DNA from: Harmothoe impar | Taxonomy: Eukaryota > Annelida > Polychaeta > Phyllodocida > Polynoidae | DNA length: 64,000 nt | Direction of reading: 5' to 3' | NCBI GenBank assembly: GCA_947462335.1 | Contig: OX381714.1 | Coordinates: 18,882,618 to 18,946,617 of the forward strand | Part shown: positions 26,204 to 62,196 of the stretch, one piece after another | How the letters are laid out: each line of letters starts with the position of its first letter | How positions within the stretch are numbered: position 1 is the first letter of the stretch | Translations under genes and position numbers: made by a program | The notes under the pieces: generated by a model | The model's database searches: none | Seen by the model: only the letters and a program-made list of their open reading frames with translations | Told to the model about the DNA's origin: nothing

Positions 26204-28177
26204 TCAAGTTAAATGGGGGAGGGTAGCTGTCGAGTTTGTGATGTACCACGTCACATTCTTCCTGTTTCCTTTATACAGGTTCCTCCTTTTGGACCCAAAG
26301 CATAAAAACGACACAGGTTCTGCGTCGTTCACAGAGTCAATACCCCTACCATCAGGGGCTGGCGGATCTTCAGCGTTACTTTCCTGCCTAATCTCTGAGA
26401 GTGAGAGTGCACTCGTTGAAATACCGAGCTCCCCATTACCAACTAATCTTCCCACATCCGACTGTGGCTCTGGACTGGACTCTTCTGGTATCAACTCGCT
26501 ACTTTGTTCATGGAGCGTTGGTCTATTGCTGCTTGGGTTTGAACTAAGTCCATGTACAGTAGATCTTGTGCCTGTGTCTTTGACCAGCTGTTCACCGGCA
26601 GTTACAGGCCAGGCCGGTGCTGGTGGCCTCACAAATATCACTGCAGGGTTCTGTTCAGGCACTTCATATGTCACACCATGGTAGTGGCGCTCCCCCTGCT
26701 GTGGGACAAACTCAATGCTACCAGGAGCCTTTATTTCTGCAGGTAGAACAAAACCATCTAGCTGATCCAGTAACTCCAGGCACAACTGAATATCTGGCTC
26801 CTCACTTCCAATGGCAACTTCAAGCTTTCTCTCAAATGATTCCACTCTCCCTAGCTCTTGCCCATAATATTCCAAATTATACTTAAACTGGTTTTGAAGT
26901 TGCCACACCCTGTTGGAGGCAGTGGCCTCTGCCTCTGCCTGTACGTCATGTATGCGGGCAGACACTGCTGCCGTCTGGCGGCCAATGCCTTCCCACACCT
27001 TGTGCAGCACCTGCTGAGAGGACTGTCTGATGTCATCTACATAGTGAATGTAAGCACTCAGGACATCAGTCTCGTAGTTCACATCGTGTAGACACCGCGT
27101 GAGCTCTTCACGGAGCAGGGCCTCTCCAGTCCCTATGCTGTGCACCTCACAGCCGCTGGAGGAGTGGCTTAAGGCACAGCAGATGGAGCAGAGGTAGGAG
27201 TGGTCAGGGCAGGAGACGCACAGGTACCTCAGCACCTGGCGGGGGTGCTGGAGGCACAGCTGGAGCCCTCCTCCAGTGGCTGACAGCTTGGTGAGGGTGT
27301 GATCATTAAACACTGCCCGCTCTGAGTGCCTCCTGGAGCAGCTCCTACAGTAGAACACAGGACACTGCTCACAGAGCAGCTCGGCCACCTGCCGCCGACA
27401 CACATCACACTCTGGTGTCCTACTGTAGGACGTGTCCACCTCCTGCTTTGTTCTGTTACCAGGCACCCATCTTCTCGGGATGGACGATTCTGTGTTGCGT
27501 CGTTGTAGATTTGATCTGGGGACAATGGTGTAGCTGGAATGGCTTCGTACAAATTTAGGTGGGGGTCTCTCTTGATTGATGTCACATAAGCTGCCCGTCG
27601 TGCTGACCTCACGCGAGCTGGTGACGTCACGAGAGCTGGTGACATCACGTGAGCTGCCCATCCTGGTGACGTCACGTGAGCTGCCCGTTCTCATGACGTC
27701 ACGTGAGCTGCCCGTCCTCGTGAAGTCATGTGAGCTGGTGACGTCACGTGAGCTGCCCATCCTGGTGACGTCACGTGAGCTGCCCGTTCTCATGACGTCA
27801 CGTGAGCTGCCCGTCCTCGTGAAGTCATGTGAGCTGGTGACGTCACGTGAGCTTCCCATCCTGGTGACGTCACGTGAGCTGCCCGTTCTCATGACGTCAC
27901 GTGAGCTGCCCGTCCTCCTGACGTCACGTGAGCTGCCCGTCCTCGTGAAGTCACGTGAGCTGCCCATCCTTGTGAAGTCATGTGAGCTGGTGACGTCACG
28001 TGAGCTGCCCGTCCTGGTGACATTATTTGAACGGTCCATTGTGGTCACATCATTTGAGGTGATGGCATTGCTGGCATTGTCGAGGGAAGTATCTTTGCTT
28101 GTTGGTTCAGCAGGGAATGTGACGCCTCCCAGGTGGTAGGCCACCTTCTCAGAGAAGGACCTTGGACGGTGCGCCAT
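26204..28177 (-). CDS. Double B-box, coiled-coil (TRIM-like) protein with N-terminal octapeptide repeats
   Basis: A single open frame of 657 codons starting at an ATG in good context (CTCACCATGG). Residues about 53-200 are tandem variants of an 8-residue TGSSRDVT repeat. B-box 1 is at about 256-298 (CDVC, CEQC, YCRSC, then H284 and H293). B-box 2 is at about 306-348 (CLQHP, YLCVSC, YLCSIC, H338, H346). A predicted coiled coil follows from about 355 to 470, with LTRCLHDVNYETDVLSAYIH-like heptads. The C-terminus is polar and low complexity. There is no RING finger upstream and no recognised C-terminal PRY-SPRY or NHL domain, so it is a RING-less TRIM-type scaffold. Family members often act in ubiquitin, signalling or innate immune complexes; its partner is unknown. 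Further 5' non-coding exons are possible. The Polinton-like element begins about 770 bp upstream of the start codon. Confidence 0.8.
   Translation of the reverse strand: MAHRPRSFSEKVAYHLGGVTFPAEPTSKDTSLDNASNAITSNDVTTMDRSNNVTRTGSSRDVTSSHDFTRMGSSRDFTRTGSSRDVRRTGSSRDVMRTGSSRDVTRMGSSRDVTSSHDFTRTGSSRDVMRTGSSRDVTRMGSSRDVTSSHDFTRTGSSRDVMRTGSSRDVTRMGSSRDVTSSRDVTSSREVSTTGSLCDINQERPPPKFVRSHSSYTIVPRSNLQRRNTESSIPRRWVPGNRTKQEVDTSYSRTPECDVCRRQVAELLCEQCPVFYCRSCSRRHSERAVFNDHTLTKLSATGGGLQLCLQHPRQVLRYLCVSCPDHSYLCSICCALSHSSSGCEVHSIGTGEALLREELTRCLHDVNYETDVLSAYIHYVDDIRQSSQQVLHKVWEGIGRQTAAVSARIHDVQAEAEATASNRVWQLQNQFKYNLEYYGQELGRVESFERKLEVAIGSEEPDIQLCLELLDQLDGFVLPAEIKAPGSIEFVPQQGERHYHGVTYEVPEQNPAVIFVRPPAPAWPVTAGEQLVKDTGTRSTVHGLSSNPSSNRPTLHEQSSELIPEESSPEPQSDVGRLVGNGELGISTSALSLSEIRQESNAEDPPAPDGRGIDSVNDAEPVSFLCFGSKRRNLYKGNRKNVTWYITNSTATLPHLT
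27590..28020. repeat. 24-bp coding minisatellite rich in GACGTCACGTGAGC
   Basis: The unit is about 24 bp (GTGACGTCACGTGAGCTGCC plus four bases), in roughly 18 variant copies, with a higher-order repeat of about 120 bp. Read on the minus strand it encodes the TGSSRDV(T/M)R repeat of the B-box protein. Read on the plus strand it is also stop-free. Each unit contains a palindromic CRE/E-box-like core, TGACGTCACGTGA. Confidence 0.9.
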
Positions 28178-28940: not shown

Positions 28941-28946
28941 CAAAAT
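28941..28946. repeat. Target-site duplication, left (CAAAAT)
   Basis: CAAAAT directly precedes the AGTAGTATAG terminus and is repeated at 38162-38167 directly after the opposite terminus. Six-base duplications are characteristic of Polinton/Maverick integration. Confidence 0.85.
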
Positions 28947-29033
28947 AGTAGTATAGTATGTATCGGAACGGGACTATAGTTAAGTACTGTTTATTACTCA
29001 ATCGACCTGCAGCCAATCAGAGGCCTCCATTTG

Positions 29034-29345
29034 GTCACGTGACCGGAAGTGACCTACTTAGGGGATTAGTGGTGAGGTCACGTGACCTAGTTAGCCAATC
29101 AGAGGCCGCCATTTGGTCACGTGACCGGAAGTGAGGTCATATGACCTACTTATGGACCGGAAGTGACGTCATATGACCTACTTAGGGGACCGGAAGTGAC
29201 CTACTTTAGGATCACGTGACCGGAAGTGACCTGATGAGTCACGTGACCGGAAGTGACGTCACATGACCTAATGGCCAACCGGAAGTGAGTGACCTGATTG
29301 AGGATCACGTGACCGAAAGTGACCTGATTGATCACGTGACCGGAA
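29034..29345. promoter_or_regulatory. Array of composite E-box/ETS/CRE-like sites in the left TIR
   Basis: About nine spaced variants of CACGTGACCGGAAGTGAC. Each joins an E-box (CACGTG) to an ideal-looking ETS/GABP site (ACCGGAAGTG), several followed by TGACGTCA. The right TIR holds a similar series at about 37700-38095. Known binding preferences of USF/MAX, ETS and CREB/ATF proteins suggest promoter or enhancer use; binding itself is inferred. Confidence 0.6.
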
Positions 29346-29834
29346 GAAGAAGAAGAAGAAGAAGAAGTGACGTCACGCGACTTAATGAAGAGATGAGCGT
29401 CTTTAAGGGGTCACGCGCTTTAAAATGTGATATCTTTTTTTTTGGAGGAGGAGGAGGAGGAGGAGGAGGAGGAGGAGGCGAGTCTCTTATTTTTTTCGGT
29501 AAACTAATAAAAAACACTACGATATAAGTTTGTTTTTTTTTTCATTTTTTATTGTTTTACGAGCGACTGGAAGTGACTTATTGAACTAGGTAGAAGCGTT
29601 CTTTAGAGTGTATAAAGGGGGGGGAGGGGGGGGAGGGGAGGGGAGGGGAGGGGAGGGAAGGGGAGGGGGGTCTTTTTAAGATGCATGGGGAGGGGGGCGC
29701 TTTTAGGATGCATGGGGCGAGTGGTGGGGGGGGGAGGGGGGGAGGGGGGAGGGGGGCACTCTAGGGGGGTGGGGGGCACTCTAAGGGGCGTTTGTCTCTT
29801 TTAAGAAAAAAAGAAAAGAAAAAGATTTCAATCG

Positions 29835-29876
29835 AGAGACACGCTTCTTCCTCTCGAGAGGAAGAAGCGTGTCTCT
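29835..29876. repeat. 42-bp perfect palindrome
   Basis: The arms AGAGACACGCTTCTTCCTCTC and its exact reverse complement meet with no loop at 29855/29856. I see no counterpart in the right TIR. In a minus-strand transcript it would lie about 150-190 nt past the Death-domain gene stop codon. Confidence 0.9.
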
Positions 29877-30027
29877 TCGTTTTTTTTTTGTTTATCACGT
29901 GCTTCGATGAGGCGATCAGCTGCGACTGGAGGAAGTGACACTTTAAGAGGGCGCGCGTCTTAATTGTTATGATATTTTTTTTTTTACTTACTAATAAAGA
30001 AGACGTATGAAAATAAAACACAACAAT

Positions 30028-30768
30028 TCACATGTCCGTCGTTCTCGTTGTTTCTTGCTTGATAAAGTCAAGTAATATCGCGATGCCGAGGTCAAACTTT
30101 CCCATGTCCTCAGTCAACACTCGAAGGAGTTCAAAAGGTGTACCGCCGGCACCGTCAGCTTCATCTTGCCACATTTTCAACACTCGGAAGGCCCACTCAG
30201 CGGGACTTCCTCCGTATTCGCATTCTTCAGCGATCTTATCTAACCTCTCAGGCGACAATTTTAAATGGTCCCCCACCTCTTTCCACCTGCTACCTAGACG
30301 TCTGCCGAGGGTGCCCAAGTGCTTATGCATCGCGCGCGAGTCGGGGTTTTCGAAATCCAACCCCTGTCTGTGGAGAAGGGACATCCACTGAGCCAACAGT
30401 TCCACGCGTCTAATGCGGGTGAAGACGCGACCGAGCTCTCCCCATCTATGACGATGCGGGGTTTCACCCCACCAGACTCGGAACATCGCCGTACACAGCT
30501 CCTCCGGTGTCTTGACACTGCGCTCTACTAGAGCATCCATACGGGCGGCGGTAACTTTTAAGCTACTGCCCAACTCTCTCCAACAGCCGCTCAACTCTTT
30601 ACCTAGTTGACGAAGCAAGGCGTCGCTATAGGCTAACCGCCGCTGTCCTACCTCTCTGTTCTCCCCATCGGTCTGCCTCGCGCGTCTCACGTCGTCAAGC
30701 TGCATTAACTTTTTTTCAGGTGGACAAGGCGGTGAAGGCGAGCTTGAAAGTGGAATAGCTTGAGCCAT
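30028..30768 (-). CDS. Tandem Death-domain protein carried by the Polinton-like element
   Basis: A 246-residue intron-less frame, ATG in good context (GACGAGATGG). After a 45-residue proline/serine-rich, basic lead come two similar helical modules. Module 1 is about 51-130: LGKELSGCWRELGSSL, then TPEELCTAMFRVWW and WGELGRVFTRI. Module 2 is about 149-236: LGRRLGSRWKEVGDHLKLS, then AFRVLKMW and TPFELLRVLTEDMGKFDLG. Both show the Death-domain pattern: W-[RK]-[ED]-[LV]-[GA] in helix 2, an acidic helix 3, a L-x-x-W helix 4, and T/W-x-x-L-L helix 5 leading to a final amphipathic helix. No enzyme, TIR, CARD or kinase domain is attached. Death domains bind other Death domains in receptor and Toll/NF-kB complexes, so a decoy or adaptor role is inferred. 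The stop codon sits exactly at the edge of the left TIR. It diverges from the PC4-like gene across about 1.07 kb. Confidence 0.8.
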   Translation of the reverse strand: MAQAIPLSSSPSPPCPPEKKLMQLDDVRRARQTDGENREVGQRRLAYSDALLRQLGKELSGCWRELGSSLKVTAARMDALVERSVKTPEELCTAMFRVWWGETPHRHRWGELGRVFTRIRRVELLAQWMSLLHRQGLDFENPDSRAMHKHLGTLGRRLGSRWKEVGDHLKLSPERLDKIAEECEYGGSPAEWAFRVLKMWQDEADGAGGTPFELLRVLTEDMGKFDLGIAILLDFIKQETTRTTDM

Positions 30769-30778
30769 CTCGTCTCGT

Positions 30779-30788
30779 CTTGGCGGTG

Positions 30789-30846
<58 letters not shown>

Positions 30847-30857
30847 TGGTGGTAGTA
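30779..30857. repeat. GGC/GGT triplet repeat in the 5' leader of the Death-domain gene
   Basis: Nearly pure (GGC)n with GGT interruptions on the plus strand, hence CCG repeats in the minus-strand transcript leader. Frames through it give poly-Arg or poly-His and are not credible proteins. Confidence 0.8.
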
Positions 30858-30910
30858 GACGTTACTGTGGTCAGAGGCGATATGTTTTTTTTCCAACAGA
30901 AATCAGAGCT

Positions 30911-30918
30911 TTTTTATA
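30911..30918 (-). promoter_or_regulatory. TATA box of the Death-domain gene
   Basis: TATAAAAA on the minus strand, about 145 nt upstream of the start codon, giving a plausible leader of roughly 115 nt. Confidence 0.5.
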
Positions 30919-31392
30919 CAGAGGGAGTTTAATCCCATTTCCAACAGCACTCCAGCTGTGTAGCGACCTGTCCGCATGACGCTTTTTCAACCGCTCCGCT
31001 CCTTAAGAGCTTAGATGACGAGGGGTGTGTCATCGCTATCCGTGGAGACCAGCTGAAAACGGTGTTTCTTCCTCATCCATAGCCTTACCTCCTACCCCCT
31101 ACCTGAGGACGTCTCCCTCCCTCTGACATTCATTGTAACAAACGTCAGAGGTCAGGTGAAAATCGGATTTTTTTCATGCACAGCCTTAGTCAGCTGTCAC
31201 CCCTCCCTATTGAACTAGCCGGCCGCCGCCTGGCCGGCCCGGTCTACTCACCACGGCAGGAGGTGGTGAGTTTTTTTTTGTCTTACACTTAAGTCGCTCA
31301 CCACATGCACACGCCTCTACTCACAGACAGACACGTTCGTCTTAGGGGGGTCCTGCTTTTTTTTTTTGTATACACACTCTAAGCTCATCACC

Positions 31393-31738
31393 GTTAATCC
31401 TTTATACAGCTAACGCGCGCTGAATGGCTGAACAGGGTGGTAAGTGGCTTAGCTCATGACAGTGGATCCCTCAAAAAAAAAAGAGGGGAAAGGGATCCAG
31501 CTGAAAACGTCATACCTTATGTCTTTGTGAATGGCCGCCGGTCAGTCGACGGCAGCAACCGGTTAATCCTTTATACAGCTAATGCGCGTTGAATTGCTGG
31601 ACAGGGTGGTAAGCGGCTTAGCTCATGACAGTCGATCTCTCAAAAGGGGGGAAAGGGATCCAGCTGAAAACGTCATGCCTTATGTCTTTTGTTTCTCTTT
31701 GTGAATGGCCGCCGGCCAGCCGGCGGCAGCTGAACAGG
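31393..31738. repeat. Two direct ~170-bp repeats in the central divergent control region
   Basis: Units start at 31393 and 31562, both GTTAATCCTTTATACAGCTA, and run through CAGGGTGGTAAG, GGCTTAGCTCATGACAGT, GGGATCCAGCTGAAAACGTC and GAATGGCCGCCGG. A third partial unit (from about 31728) leads into the TATA box at 31775. Another AGCTGAAAACG copy is near 31051. Such repeated control DNA could be promoter or replication-origin sequence; neither is shown. Confidence 0.75.
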
Positions 31739-31774
31739 GTCAGTAAGTAGCTTAGCTCTAGAAGCGAGAAGGCG

Positions 31775-31783
31775 TATATAAGG
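31775..31783 (+). promoter_or_regulatory. TATA box of the PC4-like gene
   Basis: TATATAAGG lies 66 nt before the ATG at 31841, with a TCACTCACTCATTC stretch about 25 nt downstream of it suitable as an initiator. Confidence 0.6.
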
Positions 31784-31840
31784 GGTCTGGAAACCTCCAT
31801 TCACTCACTCATTCTTTTGCTGCTCTCTACAGTCACCACC

Positions 31841-32251
31841 ATGAGCAAAAGACAACACCTAGCGCCGTCCAAGAACAAGAAGACTACGCGGAACAGCGCT
31901 CGTTTAGCGTCAGTGCCTCCTCTTGCTACTGAAAATGAGACTACCGCCGCAGCCGCTTGGTCTTATCACCCTCCCGCTGTAGCGAGCGCTCGCGGCAGTA
32001 CTAGTAGTAGTAGCAGTAGTAGTAGCAGTAGTAGTACTAGTAGTAGTAGTAGTAGTAGTAGTAGTACTACTGGTAGTAGTCGTCGTGCTAGCGACGTTGT
32101 TACACTCGCGACGGTACACGTTGCTGCTAAGCGCGCTGCCGCTGCTACTGCCGCCCCGCCTGCTGCGGCTGCTGCTGCTGCTGCTGCACCTGCTACCGCT
32201 GCGCCTGCTACTGCTGCGCCTGCTGAGGCTGCTGCGCCTGCTACTGTTGCG

Positions 32252-32291
<40 letters not shown>

Positions 32292-33436
32292 CTGCTGCAC
32301 CTGCTGCTACCGCTACTACTACTGACGACAACGCTCCTGGCACAGCGCAGTACTGGCAACCGGGTTTTTACCTCCCCACTACTGTTGATGACTTTGATGA
32401 CCTGCCGCACGTTGCACAGCCCCTCTCCTCCACCACTACATCGACCGACGCCCTCGACGCCGCTCGCGCTGAGAGTGACAGCTATTCGGACACTCAGCCC
32501 CTAAACCGAGAAGAAGAGGAGGAGGAGGAGGAGGAGCAGCAGCAACAGGGTGAGACAGAGAACGACGCTGACGACGAGGCGTACGAACAACCCGAAGGGA
32601 AAGGGGTGGGCGGTACGTTTTTCGGCTTCCCTCTTCGACCTTTCGACCTCACTTCCTCCACTAGTAGCGTCCCGTCCGGTCCGTGGCGACTGCCCTCACC
32701 GCCACCTTACGAGGGCGGCGGCGCTTCATCTTCTACCGCTACACTCAGCACCGACGGCGTGTGGCTGCGCTGTTCCAACAACGAGGCCTCGGATACCACC
32801 AGCGCTGACGCTGCTCCTGCTATCGGTTCTGCTGCTGATTCAGCTCACGCTGATGGTGTTACTCATCCTGCGGGTGTGAAACGTTCTAAGGTGAGTTCCA
32901 GAACAACAAGGCCTAGTAAGAAGAGAAAAATACAAGAAAAAGAACGAGATGGACGAGAAGAAGCAGAGAAAACCTTCTCCCGTCTTCTCGGGTTAGAGTT
33001 CTGCTTAGACGGAGCTTTGACGCTGGAGATCTGGGAGGACGTGGCTAGACTGTCTAGGAGGCCGCGCTACACAAAAGACGGCCAGGTGAAAGAGGCATCT
33101 CTGACCAGAAGCAAGCGAGTGCACTTCACGGCCGACGCGCTGCGCGAGCTAATAGCACGCATCGCCGATATCCGCGCAGTGGTGCGCATACGCGACACAG
33201 CGGCCGCGCAAGGAAAACCTAATCACACCCCCTGGTTCGCAGTGCTGGATGAGGAGGGCGAAGTGTACGCAGCTGTGAGCTACTACAGCGGTAAGAACCT
33301 CGTCCACGTGCGCAAGTACGAAGGTCCTGACAAAAAACCCACACAGCAGGGAGTGACGCTGTCCGCCAGAGCGCTCAAAGAGTTGGATGACAAAACAGAG
33401 ATCATTCTGAAATATCTCGGCATAGATTCGGAATGA
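31841..33436 (+). CDS. Low-complexity nuclear-type protein with C-terminal PC4-like DNA-binding modules
   Basis: A 531-residue frame from the ATG in CACCACCATGAGC; an upstream in-frame TTG is not a likely start. The order is: basic N-terminus; poly-Ser (about 52-80, AGT repeats); poly-Ala/Pro (about 97-157, GCT repeats); acidic Glu run with Gln (about 224-240); Pro/Ser/Thr-rich middle; basic RPSKKRKIQEKER (about 358-370), a likely nuclear signal. The last ~170 residues are well ordered. RYTKDGQVKEA...FTADALRELI (about 408-445) and VHVRKYEGPDKKPTQQGVTL (about 488-507) followed by SARALKEL both resemble the p15/PC4 single-stranded-DNA-binding fold (V-R-x-Y, then P-x-x-x-G-[IV]-x-L, then a closing helix). 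A role in replication or transcription of the element is inferred. The position just upstream of PolB, in the same direction, fits. The low-complexity half could also hide a core- or capsid-like function, but no motif supports that. Confidence 0.65.
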
Positions 33437-33453
33437 GAGACGCTCAACGCTCA

Positions 33454-33600
33454 CGCGCGCACACACACACACACACACAGCGTTTGACGTACGCTGTATG
33501 AGACAGACAGACGGATACACAGACAGCAGACAGAAAGATAAATAGATAGATAGATAGACAGATAGATTGATAGATAGATAGATAGTTAGACGGCTAAGTA
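33454..33600. repeat. (AC)n and (GATA)n microsatellites between two element genes
   Basis: (AC)n at about 33455-33478, then GACA/GATA tetranucleotides at about 33500-33590, filling the gap between the PC4-like stop and the polymerase start. Confidence 0.9.
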
Positions 33601-33624
33601 GTTGGTAACTGAGTGAAAAAAAAC

Positions 33625-35496
33625 ATGACACAGTACGTATGCGAAAAGTGTTTCAAAATGTTTAAAAGACCGTACAACCACGAGAGACACGTAGAAAATT
33701 GTAGAGTAGTACCTAAGTTTTGCCCTCTATGCGGCGAAGGCGATTGCCGAAAGATCGCCTGTCGACGCGAATCTCTGGACGGGGTGACCGTCCCTCCGCG
33801 CATATGTGCTGTACCGAACGGGGAGGAAACGTTCACGGCGAATTGGCCTGCGATACAAACGGGCGTCAGGATGCACGGGACTCGCGTGAGTGTAACAAAC
33901 TTCAGGCTACCAACCGGCGAGTTGAATGACGCTGTAGATACTATGCGTCGCATTCACTTGACACAAAGATTCAGATACAAAGTGGGTTTCTCGGTAGGCT
34001 TACTCTTACAACACAGAGAAGACAAGAGCAAACTGCGCTACTTTCACGCCTCCCAGAACAACGCAACTTTCATACAACCGCTCCCTACTATAACTAATTC
34101 AGAAACTTTGGAAGAGCTCCTCTCAAAGATGGAAAACACCGTCGCTTGCGAGGAAGTACGGAAACTTTGCGACGCTGACACCAAGTGGCACGTTCTTTTT
34201 CCTACCAATTTGAACATTTGCGTTTACATGGGACCGGGGGAATTCCCCATAGGCGGTAGGATCACTCAGGCCGGTCGAGTTGGAAAGAGAAGCGGCGTGT
34301 TAGATTTTCCCAACAAGGACAACCTCTGCATCTTCCGCTGCATTTCCTTTCACTTATACAACACCAGCAAGCGCGCTTCAGATTTGTTACGTCAGTTCTG
34401 TCCCGCTGCCACACCTGAATCCTTTCCGGGTCTGAACATCCGCGACTTACCCGCGTTAGAGAACTTGTTTGACGTACAGATAGCGGTTTACACCGCGTCG
34501 CGTCAAGTGCCGGGGCGGAAGTTGAGAAGACGCGTTACTCTGATCAGACCGCCTTCCAGAACTCTGGCCGCCCGAGGTAAAGTCAACCTACACCTGACGG
34601 CGAAAGGCGGTTTGCACGTCTCTCTCGTCACGGACTTCAACGCGTACGCGGGCATATACGAATGTTGCAAGTGTAAGGCGGCGTTCACCACCGAGTTCTT
34701 GCTGAAGAGACACAGGAACCAGCTTTCCTCTTGCCGACAAGTCAAGTTGCGCTACGTAGGTGGCATCTACCAAAATTCGAGAACGATTTTCGAAGCGCTA
34801 GCAGACTTCTCCATTTTTCCCCCCGACGGACATTCCGGAATCTACCCTTACAAGATCGCCTTCGATTTCGAGGCTTTCTTCAGACCGTGCAAAGAACCGT
34901 CGACGGAACACGTGTCCCTGCTGTGGGATCACGTCCCTTTGTCGGCTAGCGTCGCATCCGACTTTCCGGGGTGGGAGGGGCCCGTCTGCTTCGTCAGAGA
35001 ATCCGACGCAGATTCCGACCCCTTGTTGGACCGAGTTTTAAATCACATAAACGAGAACGCCAAAGTCATCGGGGAAGCTACGCCTTCACTCGTTCTTCGC
35101 CTCCGGAGACCGAAGAAACCAAGAATTCAGCGTCATAAAGAGAAGCAATCAATACTTGGCGGTTTACACACAGCACACGGTTTTCTTGGACGTAGTCAAC
35201 TATTTGGCACCCGGTTACAACTACGCGACCTATTTGCGAGCTTTCACCAGGAACGAAGAGAAAGGTCACTTTCCTTACGAATGGATGACGTCTACCAGGA
35301 AACTGGCAAACAGAACGCTGCCACCGAGATCGGCTTTCGACAGCGAGCTGACGGGCATCAAAATGTCCGAATCCGACTACGCCGCATGTCAGAAAGTTTG
35401 GTCCGACGAGAAGATGCAAACTATGGAAGACTACTTGATCCACTACAACAACAAAGACGTCAAACCTTTCATAGAAGCTCTGAAAAATCATGCTAA
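33625..35496 (+). CDS. polB: Protein-primed family B DNA polymerase, N-terminal part (zinc fingers, OTU-like, ExoI)
   Basis: The ATG at 33625 (MTQYVCEKCFKMF) is preferred over an in-frame GTG at 33613. The order is: a C2HC/C2H2-like finger (C6, C9, H19, H22/C26); a cysteine cluster CPLCGEGDC; an OTU-peptidase-like segment with D232 and C235 in DNLCIFR (compare DGNCLFR of OTU proteases) and a candidate histidine near 331; a second finger around residues 347-370 (CKCKAAF...KRHRNQ); and exonuclease motif I as DFEAF (D414, E416). Beyond about nt 35085-35115 the frame loses homology and runs to a stop at 35496, while the continuation is in the next frame. The true N-terminal product therefore ends near there unless the break is a sequence error or is bypassed. 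Confidence 0.8.
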   Translation: MTQYVCEKCFKMFKRPYNHERHVENCRVVPKFCPLCGEGDCRKIACRRESLDGVTVPPRICAVPNGEETFTANWPAIQTGVRMHGTRVSVTNFRLPTGELNDAVDTMRRIHLTQRFRYKVGFSVGLLLQHREDKSKLRYFHASQNNATFIQPLPTITNSETLEELLSKMENTVACEEVRKLCDADTKWHVLFPTNLNICVYMGPGEFPIGGRITQAGRVGKRSGVLDFPNKDNLCIFRCISFHLYNTSKRASDLLRQFCPAATPESFPGLNIRDLPALENLFDVQIAVYTASRQVPGRKLRRRVTLIRPPSRTLAARGKVNLHLTAKGGLHVSLVTDFNAYAGIYECCKCKAAFTTEFLLKRHRNQLSSCRQVKLRYVGGIYQNSRTIFEALADFSIFPPDGHSGIYPYKIAFDFEAFFRPCKEPSTEHVSLLWDHVPLSASVASDFPGWEGPVCFVRESDADSDPLLDRVLNHINENAKVIGEATPSLVLRLRRPKKPRIQRHKEKQSILGGLHTAHGFLGRSQLFGTRLQLRDLFASFHQERRERSLSLRMDDVYQETGKQNAATEIGFRQRADGHQNVRIRLRRMSESLVRREDANYGRLLDPLQQQRRQTFHRSSEKSC

Positions 35497-37528
35497 ATTT
35501 TTCCAAGATCGCCGCATTGACATGTTGAAAGACGGAGTTTCTCTCGCCGGTTTGACTTTACGGTTCCTCTTCCAAAACCTAGAAGACGCGTTCACAACGT
35601 TCCCCCAGTTCGACGCCGTCCTCCACGCTCTGATCAAAGAAAATCTAGTCGGCGGTCCTTCCATCATCTTCCATAGATTTCACGAGAAGGGCACCACGCG
35701 GATAAGGGAGCACAAGTACGGCGAAGAAGCGAGACCGTGCCAACACATCCTAGGACTAGACGCTAACTCTCTGTACTTGCGCTGCATGAGCGAAGCGCAC
35801 TGCACGGGCTATTACGCGGTGAGACGGCCCGAGACCGAGTTCAAGCCTGAAATTAGGCAAAGAAACTCTCACAGCGCTTTGGAGTGGTTACGCTTCGTAG
35901 AGCACGACCGCGACGTGAAACTGCGCCACGCTTTGAACGGCGGCGAGATGGTTGTAGGCTGTCGGAGAATTCGCATGGACGGGTTTCACGCGGCCTCTAA
36001 TACGGTTTTCCAGTTTCACGGGTGTTGGTTCCACGCTCACGAGTGCATACCGTCGCACCGATATCAGTGCGCTTCACTGAGAGAGGAGAGACGCGACAGA
36101 ACGACCAGAGTAAGCGCTTACTTGAAAGCGCTAGGTCACAAGCTGGTCGTCGTGTGGGAGTGCGAATGGCGAGAGATGAAGCGTCGAGATGAGCGGGTCA
36201 AGGCCTCCCAACAACGCTGGAAGGTTGACGCTTTGAAAGTGTCTCGAAACGCGATGAGCGAGAGCGACATCCTTTCCGCTGTGAAAGAGGAGAAAATGTT
36301 CGGTTTAGTTCAAGTGGACATCACTACGCCGCCTCACCTACGAGACTACTTCGAAGAAATGACCCCCGTTTTCAAGAACGCGACCGTTTCAAAATCGGAC
36401 ATAGGACCTCACATGTCAGACTTTGCGCAGGAAGAAAAGCTGTTGAACACGCCTCAGAGATGTCTGATAGGGAGTTACCACGGAAAAAATATTCTCTTGG
36501 GAACGCCGCTTCTCAAGTGGTATTTAGAGCACGGTTTGATAGTCACCAAAGTGCAGCTGGTGGTAGAATACCTACCTAAACGCTCCTTTGCCGGTTTCGC
36601 GGACGAAGTAACGGCGGCGCGAAGACGTGGCGACGTGAACGAGAACGAGAAAATTCTGTCAGACTGTTACAAGTTAATGGGAAACGCTACGTACGGTAAA
36701 ACAATCTGCAACAAAGAAAAACACACGGCGGTGAGATACACTGACAGTCGGAAGTTCGAACTATTGGCCAATTCGTGGCGCTTCAAAAAGGCGTCCGAGT
36801 TGAGTTCCGATCTGTTTGAAGTCGAACTACAACCGAAAACAGTCAACAACAACCTCCCTATTCAAATAGGGTTCATGGTATACCAGTACGCGAAGTTGAA
36901 AATGTTAGAGTTCACATACGACTTCTTGGATAGATTCGTCGATCGGCGCGATTATGCCCTTTGTCAAATAGACACCGACAGTCTTTACATGGCTCTCAGC
37001 GGTGACACGTTGGATGACCTAGTCAAACCTCGCCTGAGAGAGACGTACTTCAGAGAGAAACGAAAGTGGCTTCCGACAGCGGTGTGCGACGATCACTTAG
37101 AGCTTTTCGTGAAGACAAAAACGGAAAGAGTGCGAGAATGGTGTCCGCCGCCCGGCGGATGTTGTGAGAGACGGTACCTTCACGATCTGAGAACTTCGGG
37201 GCTTATGAAAGCGGAGTGGGAAGGTGACGGGATCCTAAGTCTCAACCCTAAGACTTACATTTGCTACGATCGAGTCAGCGACACCGGTGAAAGAAAATCC
37301 AAAAAATGGAGTGCAAAAGGCGTACAGAAGAAACAAAACCCTCAGGAACCAGACGACTTCTTGGATGTTCTTCGCCAACGAAAAACTCTCATTGCTGTAA
37401 ATAGAAACTTCAAAGTGGTGCGAAACAAAATGGTCACCTACACCATAGAGAAAGACGGCGTGCGCTACTTGTATTATAAGCGTCGCGTGCATTCTGACGG
37501 TGTGACAACGAGTCCTTTAGAGATATGA
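35050..37528 (+). CDS. polB: Protein-primed family B DNA polymerase, C-terminal part (ExoII-III and polymerase motifs)
   Basis: This frame is +1 relative to the upstream part and is open from 35050 after a TAA at 35047. It has no own good start, so it is a continuation. Motifs: ExoII FLDVVNYLAPG (about 35183), GHFPYEWMTS, ExoIII YNNKDVKPF (about 35445), polymerase motif A LDANSLYL (from about 35756), motif B KLMGNATYGK (from 36671) and motif C DTDSLYM (from 36971). All catalytic acidic residues are present, so only the frame break separates this from an intact enzyme. The spacing and FPYEW signature are those of Polinton/Maverick-type pPolB, which starts synthesis from a protein primer at linear ends. 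Stop TGA at 37526. Confidence 0.9.
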
Positions 37529-37590
37529 AAAAAAAAAAAAAAAGCGTGTGCATCTTTTCAAAAATAGAGTGTTTATCAAGATTGAAAAAA

Positions 37591-37596
37591 AATAAA
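37591..37596 (+). promoter_or_regulatory. Polyadenylation signal AATAAA after PolB
   Basis: AATAAATAAA begins 62 nt past the polymerase stop, with further AATAAA-like words to 37613, just before the right TIR begins. Confidence 0.6.
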
Positions 37597-37616
37597 TAAA
37601 AAAAATAAAATAAAAT

Positions 37617-38161
37617 ATTGTTGTGTTTTTATTTTCATACGTCTTCTTTTACTAGTAAGTCGCGCAGTCTCTTAAAGCGTCACTCATGTGACGACGTCGC
37701 TTCCAGTCACGTGATCCTAAAGACCCTCACTTCCTAAACAAAAAACTTCTTCTTCCGCTCACGTGATCAATCAAGTCACTTCCGGTCACGTGATCCTCAA
37801 TGAGGTCACTCACTTCCGGTCGGCCATTAGGTCATGTGACGTCACTTCCGCTCACGTGACTCATCAGGTCACTTCCGGTCACGTGATCCTAAATTAGGTC
37901 ATATGACGTCACTTCCGGTCCCCTAAGTAGGTCAGTAAGTTACCCAGAATGCACCACTAATCCCCTAAGTAGGTCACTTCCGGTCACGTGACCAAATGGT
38001 GGCCTCTGATTGGCTGCAGGGTTACCCAGAATGCACCACTAATCCCCTAAGTAGGTCACTTCCGGTCACGTGACCAAATGGAGGCCTCTGATTGGCTGCA
38101 TGTCGATTGAGTAATAAACAGTACTTAACTATAGTCCCGTTCCGATACATACTATACTACT
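37617..38161. repeat. Right terminal inverted repeat
   Basis: About 545 bp, reverse-complementary to the outer and inner parts of the left TIR. It carries the CACTTCCGGTCACGTGA series and an extra local duplication (GGTTACCCAGAATGCACCACT at about 37931 and 38020). It lacks the G-rich arrays and the palindrome of the left side. Confidence 0.85.
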
Positions 38162-38167
38162 CAAAAT
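38162..38167. repeat. Target-site duplication, right (CAAAAT)
   Basis: Identical to 28941-28946 and directly adjacent to the ACTACT terminus. Confidence 0.85.
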
Positions 38168-43249: not shown

Positions 43250-44176
43250 CATAGTCATACAGTACGTTAGCCAGTCCTGTACACAGACCCATAGTCATAC
43301 AGTATGTTAGCCAGTCCTGTACACAGACCCATAGTCATACAGTATGTTAGCCAGTCCTGTACACAGACCCATAGTCATACAGTATGTTGGCCAGTCCTGT
43401 ACACCGACCCATAGTCATACAGTATGTTAGCCAGTCCTGTACAGACCCATAGTCATACAGTATGTTAGCCAGTCCTGTACAGACCCATAGTCATACAGTA
43501 TGTTAGCCAGTCCTGTACACAGACCCATAGTCATGCAGTATGTTAGCCAGTCCTGTACAGACCCATAGTCATACAGTATGTTAGCCAGTCCTGTACACAG
43601 ACCCATAGTCATACAGTATGTTAGCCAGTCCTGTACAGACCCATAGTCATACAGTATGTTAGCCAGTCCTGTACAGACCCATAGTCATACAGTATGTTAG
43701 CCAGTCCAGTACACAGACCCATAGTCATACAGTATGTTAGCCAGTCCTGTACACAGACCCATAGTCATACAGTATGTTAGCCAGTCCAGTACACAGACCC
43801 ATAGTCATACAGTATGTTAGCCAGTCCTGTACACAGACCCATAGTCATACAGTATGTTAGCCAGTCCTGTACACAGACCCATAGTCATACAGTATGTTAG
43901 CCAGTCCTGTACAGACTCATAGTCATACAGTATGTTAGCCAGTCCAGTACACAGACCCATAGTCATACAGTATGTTAGCCAGTCCTGTACACAGACCCAT
44001 AGTCATACAGTATGTTAGCCAGTCCAGTACACAGACCCATAGTCATACAGTATGTTAGCCAGTCCAGTACACAGACCCATAGTCATACAGTATGTTAGCC
44101 AGTCCTGTACAGACTCATAGTCATACAGTATGTTAGCCAGTCCTGTACACAGACCCATAGTCATACAGTATGTTAG
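43250..44176. repeat. 40/38-bp minisatellite, about 23 copies
   Basis: The unit CATAGTCATACAGTATGTTA plus GCCAGTCCTGTACACAGACC. Some copies lack two bases (CTGTACAGACC), giving 38 bp; others read CCAGTACAC. Copies are highly alike, so the array is young. The minus-strand frame MTMGLCTGLANILYD repeats through it but is only a by-product. Confidence 0.95.
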
Positions 44177-61447: not shown

Positions 61448-62196
61448 TAGGTTATAGTATACCCACCTACATGCACTGTACACACACAGTGTGCTGCTGT
61501 AGGGGTACATTACCCCCTACATGCACTGTACACACACAATGTGCTGCTGTAGGGGTGCAGTACCCCCTACATGCACTGTACACATACAATGTGCTGCTGT
61601 AGGGGTGCAGTACCCCCTACATGCACTGTACACACACAATGTGCTGCTGTAGGGGTACAGTAACCCCTACATGCACTGTACACACACAATGTGCTGCTGT
61701 AGGGGTGCAGTCACCCCTACATGCACTGTACACACACAATGTGCTGCTGTAGGTGTACAGTACCCCCTACATGCACTGTACACACACAATGTGCTGCTGT
61801 AGGTGTACAGTCACCCCCTACATGCACTGTACACACACAATGTGCTGTAGGGGTACAGTGACCACCTACATGCACTGTACACACACAGTGTGCTGCTGTA
61901 GGGGTACAGTACCCCCTACATGCACTGTACACACACAATGTGCTGCTGTAGGGGTGCAGTACCCCCTACATGCACTGTACACACACAATGTGCTGCTGTA
62001 GGGGTACATTACCCCCTACATGCACTGTACACACACAATGTGCTGCTGTAGGGGTACAGTACCCCCTACATGCACTGTACACACACAATGTGCTGCTGTA
62101 GGGGTACAGTACCCCCTACATGCACTGTACACACACAATGTGCTGCTGTAGGGGTACAGTCACCCCCTACATACACTGTACACATACAATGTGCTG
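61448..62196. repeat. 50-bp satellite, about 15 copies
   Basis: The unit combines ATGCACTGTACACACACAAT, GTGCTGCTGT and AGGGGTACAGTACCCCCTAC. Variants are 47-51 bp. Each unit has a GGGGTACAGTACCCC near-palindrome. Both strands stay open over much of the array, giving artefactual Cys/His-rich frames. Confidence 0.95.

Follow-up and report, generated by a model that had tools for sequence, protein, structure and literature searches.

A probable bipartite Polinton in the annelid Harmothoe impar, with replication genes in one integrated element and integration and particle genes in another

We analyzed a 64,000-nucleotide stretch of the genome of the polynoid annelid Harmothoe impar (GenBank assembly GCA_947462335.1, contig OX381714.1, positions 18,882,618 to 18,946,617 of the forward strand; hereafter, the window), which contains a mobile element of 9,215 bp, denoted element B, at positions 28947-38161. 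The element starts with AGTAGTATAG and ends with CTATACTACT, that is, it has AG...CT tips; its outer inverted arms (28947-29074 and 38034-38161) span 128 bp with 1 mismatch and the inner ones (29197-29352 and 37746-37901) 156 bp with 7 mismatches, and the whole is flanked by a 6-bp duplication (Table 1). The interior holds three genes, encoding a Death-domain protein on the minus strand and a PC4-like protein and a family-B DNA polymerase (PolB) on the plus strand. An earlier, sequence-only reading had described precisely these tips, repeats and duplication, and a three-gene interior devoid of integrase, packaging ATPase, protease and capsid motifs; both descriptions are borne out, the latter by the lack of Pfam matches to any of the four functions in the window open reading frames (ORFs) and pieces searched (four in one search and six in another). 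A complete Polinton is rejected as the identity of the element because no integrase, adenain, ATPase or capsid match was obtained. Rather, the window element is very probably an older, damaged copy of one segment of a two-segment (bipartite) Polinton, in which B would provide replication and a separately integrated segment, A, integration and the particle.

The PolB gene is broken in the window copy. Its two overlapping frames correspond to parts of P0001, a single 1,375-aa protein with 98% identity to the second frame; the approximately 66 residues of P0001 that precede the palm (493-558) have no match. Relatives of this PolB number 1,615 in total, and the named ones among the best 120, which were listed, are proteins of a lancelet, a sea cucumber and a brittle star (41-43%). 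Polinton PolBs are laid out as terminal protein, vOTU, exonuclease and palm in PMC11071308, and it was against this description that the vOTU region was assigned, by eye. The Vsr-like insert matched Vsr endonuclease in the PDB at E ~0.01 and the Pfam family Vsr at 0.035 and 0.038 in 2 of 4 relatives, below the cut-off. A glutaredoxin-like Pfam match inside PolB (0.0011) and a match of an 86-aa window ORF (E 0.012, below its cut-off) were taken as chance. Of the protein-primed PolB announced by the sequence-only reading, the family match stands, and protein priming by a polymerase of this type would be expected from its family, but the gene is not intact here; because PolB is broken, the self-replication that had been proposed as one option is now unlikely for the window copy.

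In profile searches of the PDB, which gave weak matches, the first domain of the tandem Death-domain protein was closest to FADD (best E 0.0023) and the second to GPX62 (0.0027) and RIPK1 (0.033); the protein has three relatives (99, 78 and 55%). The PC4-like protein, with one relative (73%), matches Pfam PC4 at 1.2e-4 over its whole length, below the cut-off, and at 1.4e-5, at the 25-bit cut-off, with its C-terminal part, which is predicted to bind single-stranded DNA. AlphaFold modelled the Death-domain and PC4-like proteins with low confidence (mean pLDDT 43 and 46, respectively); with these models, Foldseek returned no useful match for the former and nothing at E <= 0.001 for the latter, the best lead being PURA repeats (E 4.5e-3). 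Since relatives of each of the three proteins were found, all three genes appear to persist in sister families, judged gene by gene and not as a linked set.

Table 1. Features of element B and its borders in the window
Feature	Position	Strand	Basis or correspondence
Target-site duplication CAAAAT, left copy	28941..28946	.	sequence
Left terminal inverted repeat	28947..29352	+	outer 98 bp versus element A, 97/98
Tandem Death-domain protein, 246 aa	30028..30768	-	Pfam Death 2.6e-7, two Death-domain stretches
Unit of ~170 bp, two copies, in the gap separating the divergent Death and PC4-like genes	31393..31730	.	repeat families D8, D14, D16
PC4-like protein, low-complexity N-terminus, C-terminal PC4-like part	31841..33436	+	Pfam PC4
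PolB, first open frame: C2H2-like fingers, terminal-protein/vOTU-like region by motif	33613..35496	+	P0001 residues 1-492
PolB, second open frame: palm with Vsr-like insert	35156..37528	+	P0001 residues 559-1375
Right terminal inverted repeat	37746..38161	-	outer 98 bp versus element A, 98/98
Target-site duplication CAAAAT, right copy	38162..38167	.	sequence

The terminal repeats led to a second element. When loci taken from the same 1.51-Gb genome were scanned with the window repeats, one strong match was obtained, at L010 on contig C350, starting exactly at a tip; the outer 98 bp of this element, A, are identical to the right tip of B at 98 of 98 positions and to the left tip at 97 of 98. 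Inward from the C350 tip, A encodes a 99-aa ORF, an adenain (Pfam Peptidase_C5, 21.6 bits versus a cut-off of 21.3), a 390-aa capsid-like protein, proteins of 143 and 372 aa, and an integrase with a match to rve (3.2e-13) and a weak one to a chromodomain (0.0013, below the cut-off). We presume the 390-aa protein to be capsid-like from its 24-28% homology to ORFs that neighbor PolB in further Polintons of this genome. When the window was compared with 6.3 kb of this A copy, blastn hits were confined to the repeats and an 85-bp stretch (75%) immediately inward of the right repeat, and those of tblastx to repeat matches and short linked fragments; neither search found a gene match in the window element to the integrase, adenain or other genes of A. 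The C350 copy apparently is nested, starting beside the capsid-like and PolB genes of another Polinton (L010:8681, C350:38681).

Because contig C350 ends early, the integrase was used as the query for further copies of A, giving at least 109 matches, all 100% identical over 378 residues (a lower bound, with 109 of 6,694 candidates scored). In two copies, on C1 and C12, the part from the integrase to the far tip encodes a protein of 436-440 aa, an ORF of 123-127 aa, an ATPase and two ORFs of 232-237 and 255-258 aa; in both copies, no match to PolB, Death or PC4 was detected (E <= 1e-3). The ATPase matches Adeno_IVa2 at 7.8e-5, just over the cut-off, and Pox_A32 at 4.2e-4, below it. These copies are complete, with lengths of 10,495 bp (C1, duplication CGTTTT) and 10,521 bp (C12, duplication AATATC). 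Ten further copies of A and ten of B, hand-picked from the integrase and PolB lists, were read at their ends: all 10 copies of A have both tips (98-100% identical) and an exact 6-bp duplication, and measure 10,130-10,536 bp. About 2.65 kb past the end of the C1 copy lies another, inverted tip with the right-end sequence of A (L022:8127). The 237-aa protein differs by ~13% between two copies (L022:2826-3536 and L023:2826-3521), and the adjoining ATPase shows 0 differences over 240 codons; the gene for the 237-aa protein may be fast-evolving or exchanged.

Element B, too, is a multicopy unit. With P0001, at least 34 stop-free B PolBs were found (34 scored of 7,573 candidates, again a lower bound). 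The B copy on C4 is 9,488 bp long, has the duplication ACTATA and is inserted in the terminal repeat of another B (L024:664-734, L025:821). In both B copies that were read, on C4 and C10, the Death and PC4 genes are located upstream of PolB, and ten A proteins (E <= 1e-10) found no match in the pieces of these copies. Among the ten B copies read at their ends, 8 have both tips (99-100%), an exact 6-bp duplication and a length of 9,508-9,538 bp. A search of the genome with the 128-bp tip gave no match and missed the window itself, so this search was insensitive; scans of IMG/VR with PolB, a PolB alignment, the tip and the capsid-like protein of A, and tblastn against phage records, gave no result.

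These copies speak directly to the possibility that the window element is the mere internal-deletion remnant of an ordinary Polinton. Small size and a broken PolB would fit such a remnant, but the 9.5-kb size and exact duplications recur in 8 of 10 copies and there are at least 34 stop-free PolBs; contradicted by the other B copies, this explanation is rejected, and the probability we would leave it is negligible. The same data test what the sequence-only reading had named as potential refutations: no integrase or capsid match occurs in the C4 and C10 pieces, both tips and 6-bp duplications recur at other insertions, and the layout and size are shared by other B copies, so that the window element is not an isolated deletion. 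Its left part is 91.6% identical to the C4 copy, while the C4 and C10 copies are 99.0% identical over 3,956 columns, which places the window copy in an older or divergent layer of B. Between the window and C4 copies, dN/dS is 0.37 for the Death frame (22 changes) and 0.18 for the PC4-tail frame (8 changes).

Taken together, there are two separate units in this genome with matching 98-bp tips, exact 6-bp duplications, complementary gene sets, and many open integrase and PolB frames. In the copies read, A and B divide a single Polinton's set of genes between them, and no gene was seen in both: together they supply PolB, integrase, adenain and packaging ATPase, adenain and ATPase just above their Pfam cut-offs, and the two do not form one contiguous unit in the copies examined. 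We consider it likely that they are the mutually dependent segments of a bipartite Polinton, a double-stranded DNA transposon or provirus that is still active or was until very recently, each segment being integrated separately and ending in the matching 98-bp tips. Recent activity of both segments is suggested by the near-identity and open frames of the integrase and PolB genes. In this arrangement, segment B (~9.5 kb) would be the replication module, consisting of a protein-primed PolB, a PC4-like single-strand DNA binder and the tandem Death-domain protein, and segment A (~10.5 kb), in which no polymerase was found, would contribute adenain, capsid-like proteins, integrase and a packaging-type ATPase. 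PolB and the PC4-like protein of B would copy linear A and B from the common tips by protein priming, the integrase of A would insert both segments via the same tips, and the particle of A would package one or both. The Death-domain protein might dampen host signalling of the death-receptor type. The sequence-only reading had envisaged, as one of two options, an integrase-dependent Polinton satellite. Integrase dependence fits, given that this genome contains an element with the same tips that does carry an integrase; as for the satellite, B indeed has no integrase of its own, but the partner lacks a polymerase in the copies read, so that a complete Polinton as helper was not seen.

The terminal repeats could have a part in this cycle beyond integration. 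Both are arrays of ETS-, E-box/USF- and CRE-like words and CCAAT words. The words CCGGAAGT, TCACGTGA, TGACGTCA and CCAATCAG occur, respectively, 7, 7, 3 and 2 times in the left repeat and 6, 7, 2 and 2 times in the right one (shuffle means <=0.02); a count of such words in the 8,250-bp interior found none; the right repeat additionally contains CCCAGAATGC twice. Adenovirus ends carry factor-site arrays that drive transcription and/or replication, and those of B would do likewise; the repeats may serve as promoters and replication starts. The doubled ~170-bp unit is a possible shared promoter of the Death and PC4-like genes.

Several observations weigh against the bipartite interpretation. The C10 copy of B shows the right tip only, its left piece being without a tip, and 2 of the 10 further B copies (C4:33239889 and C8:34488122) lack the left tip. 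The C1 and C12 copies of A are not uniform (97.8% and 95.2% identity over two stretches). The capsid-like protein of A, the candidate for a double jelly-roll major capsid protein, matches nothing in Pfam or the PDB and nothing meaningful among the PHROGs; PDB searches were likewise of no use with a profile of eight such proteins and with the A ATPase. The mutual help of A and B, as well as packaging, we infer from DNA sequence alone. Finally, candidates were scored in part, which leaves room for rare unsplit A+B copies or further segments.

This last point bears on the alternative that a complete, unsplit Polinton still provides both functions from a small number of copies, A and B being its satellites or having arisen from it by complementary deletions. 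The common tips do point to a single ancestor, and the integrase and PolB tallies are lower bounds. However, no integrase among the 109 listed comes closer than 16 kb to a PolB among the 34 listed, the nearest pair being 16,352 bp apart on C11 with an A tip in between; the elements fall into two tight length classes, all 10 A copies and 8 of the 10 B copies checked at their ends being complete units; and the gene sets, without overlap seen, add up to the normal Polinton complement. We regard this origin as improbable, although it is the strongest of the competitors.

A genuinely bipartite Polinton also has to be distinguished from an arrangement in which B, a satellite equipped with a polymerase, relies on A for integrase and capsid, and A is copied by the PolB of another Polinton family. 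Such PolBs do exist in the genome. L009 and L016 are other Polintons, with an integrase and a capsid-like ORF beside PolB, and there are 28 PF03175 matches (G000 and L001-L008) that span positions 12-462 of the profile and lie in open frames of 1,133-1,189 aa (one of 713 aa, and two with an internal stop). This set looks like a second, recently multiplied Polinton PolB family, three sampled ORFs being nearly identical. Nevertheless, protein-primed polymerases are expected to need matching ends, and the tips of A equal those of B. Furthermore, the window tip had one strong match in L001-L020, namely the A copy at L010, a weak argument given that most pieces stop short of the element ends, and the sole other Polinton with both ends available (C1:41.55-41.58 Mb) carries a separate inverted repeat of 93 columns (93.5%; L019:3151-3243, L020:6237-6150), which is unlike the window tip. 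The other Polinton PolBs are also very distant from that of B: in a tree of 32 PolBs, the window relatives P0001-P0003 group with P0004 and P0005 (100/99), far from both other PolB groups sampled from the genome, the deeper joins being unreliable because of long branches. On balance, a satellite B with a foreign polymerase for A seems very unlikely. A candidate second PolB-only element (L011:919-7615), with 703-bp perfect inverted repeats and a two-frame PolB, was rejected, as its arms end without AG tips or a duplication.

The longest contigs of five of the eight closest listed PolBs (P0001, P0003, P0005, P0006 and P0008) comprise 9,882, 9,859, 9,603, 10,059 and 9,323 bases, respectively, and those of the remaining three 4,271, 17,632 and 4,232 bases; over P0002-P0012, the PolB-bearing contigs range from 4.2 to 17.6 kb. 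The 9-10-kb contigs might be whole B-type units in other samples, a hint at a whole split-genome lineage.

In the host DNA around the element, a 21-bp word, AAATTCGCCAAATTGGCTAAT, occurs in both flanks (window 28687 and 38174). An ORF of 657 aa without introns occupies positions 26204-28177; it contains tandem repeats of 27 and 54 bp that keep the frame, and a part rich in cysteine that appears B-box-like by eye. Tandem arrays are present at 43250-44176 (40-bp unit, 23.5 copies) and 61460-62196 (50-bp unit, 14.7 copies).

Split genomes are well known from RNA viruses and from viruses with single-stranded DNA; of those with double-stranded DNA, polydnaviruses have them. If correct, the bipartite interpretation would extend such genomes to the Polinton lineage, which is held to link adenoviruses, virophages and linear plasmids (PMC11071308). 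Since each half leaves insertions with exact duplications that can be counted in a single genome, copy ratio, co-activity and tip exchange would then allow the cost and dynamics of genome splitting to be measured from sequence data alone. Such a Polinton would also show how a polymerase-bearing element can part from its particle genes. The literature searched, mostly titles and the beginnings of abstracts, contained no split Polinton, although one may be in print; no paper combining 'polinton', 'maverick' and 'death domain' was found, and 'bipartite' in PMC12220804 refers to networks and not to split genomes.

Among known systems, polydnaviruses are alike in having a segmented double-stranded DNA genome made from proviral sequences, according to PMC2646287; here, A and B both insert with 6-bp duplications and bear Polinton genes. 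Bidnaviruses share a Polinton-type PolB and, in some members, a split DNA genome of up to twelve segments, but their PolB is joined with a parvovirus NS1 and a single-jelly-roll capsid, according to PMC11071296. In the ORFs searched in both segments, no Pfam match to a parvovirus-type NS1 helicase or such a capsid was obtained, and A has an integrase and adenain, so a bidnavirus is rejected. With Polintons/Mavericks and adintoviruses (Preplasmiviricota), A and B share AG tips, 6-bp duplications and a PolB with an OTU-like N-terminal region and, summed over both segments, the rve-chromo integrase, adenain, IVa2/A32-like ATPase and capsid-like genes. Known Polintons typically span 15-25 kb, and up to 40 kb, by the account in PMC6431247, whereas here the genes are distributed over one unit of 9.5 kb and one of 10.5 kb, each integrated on its own and the two having matching tips.

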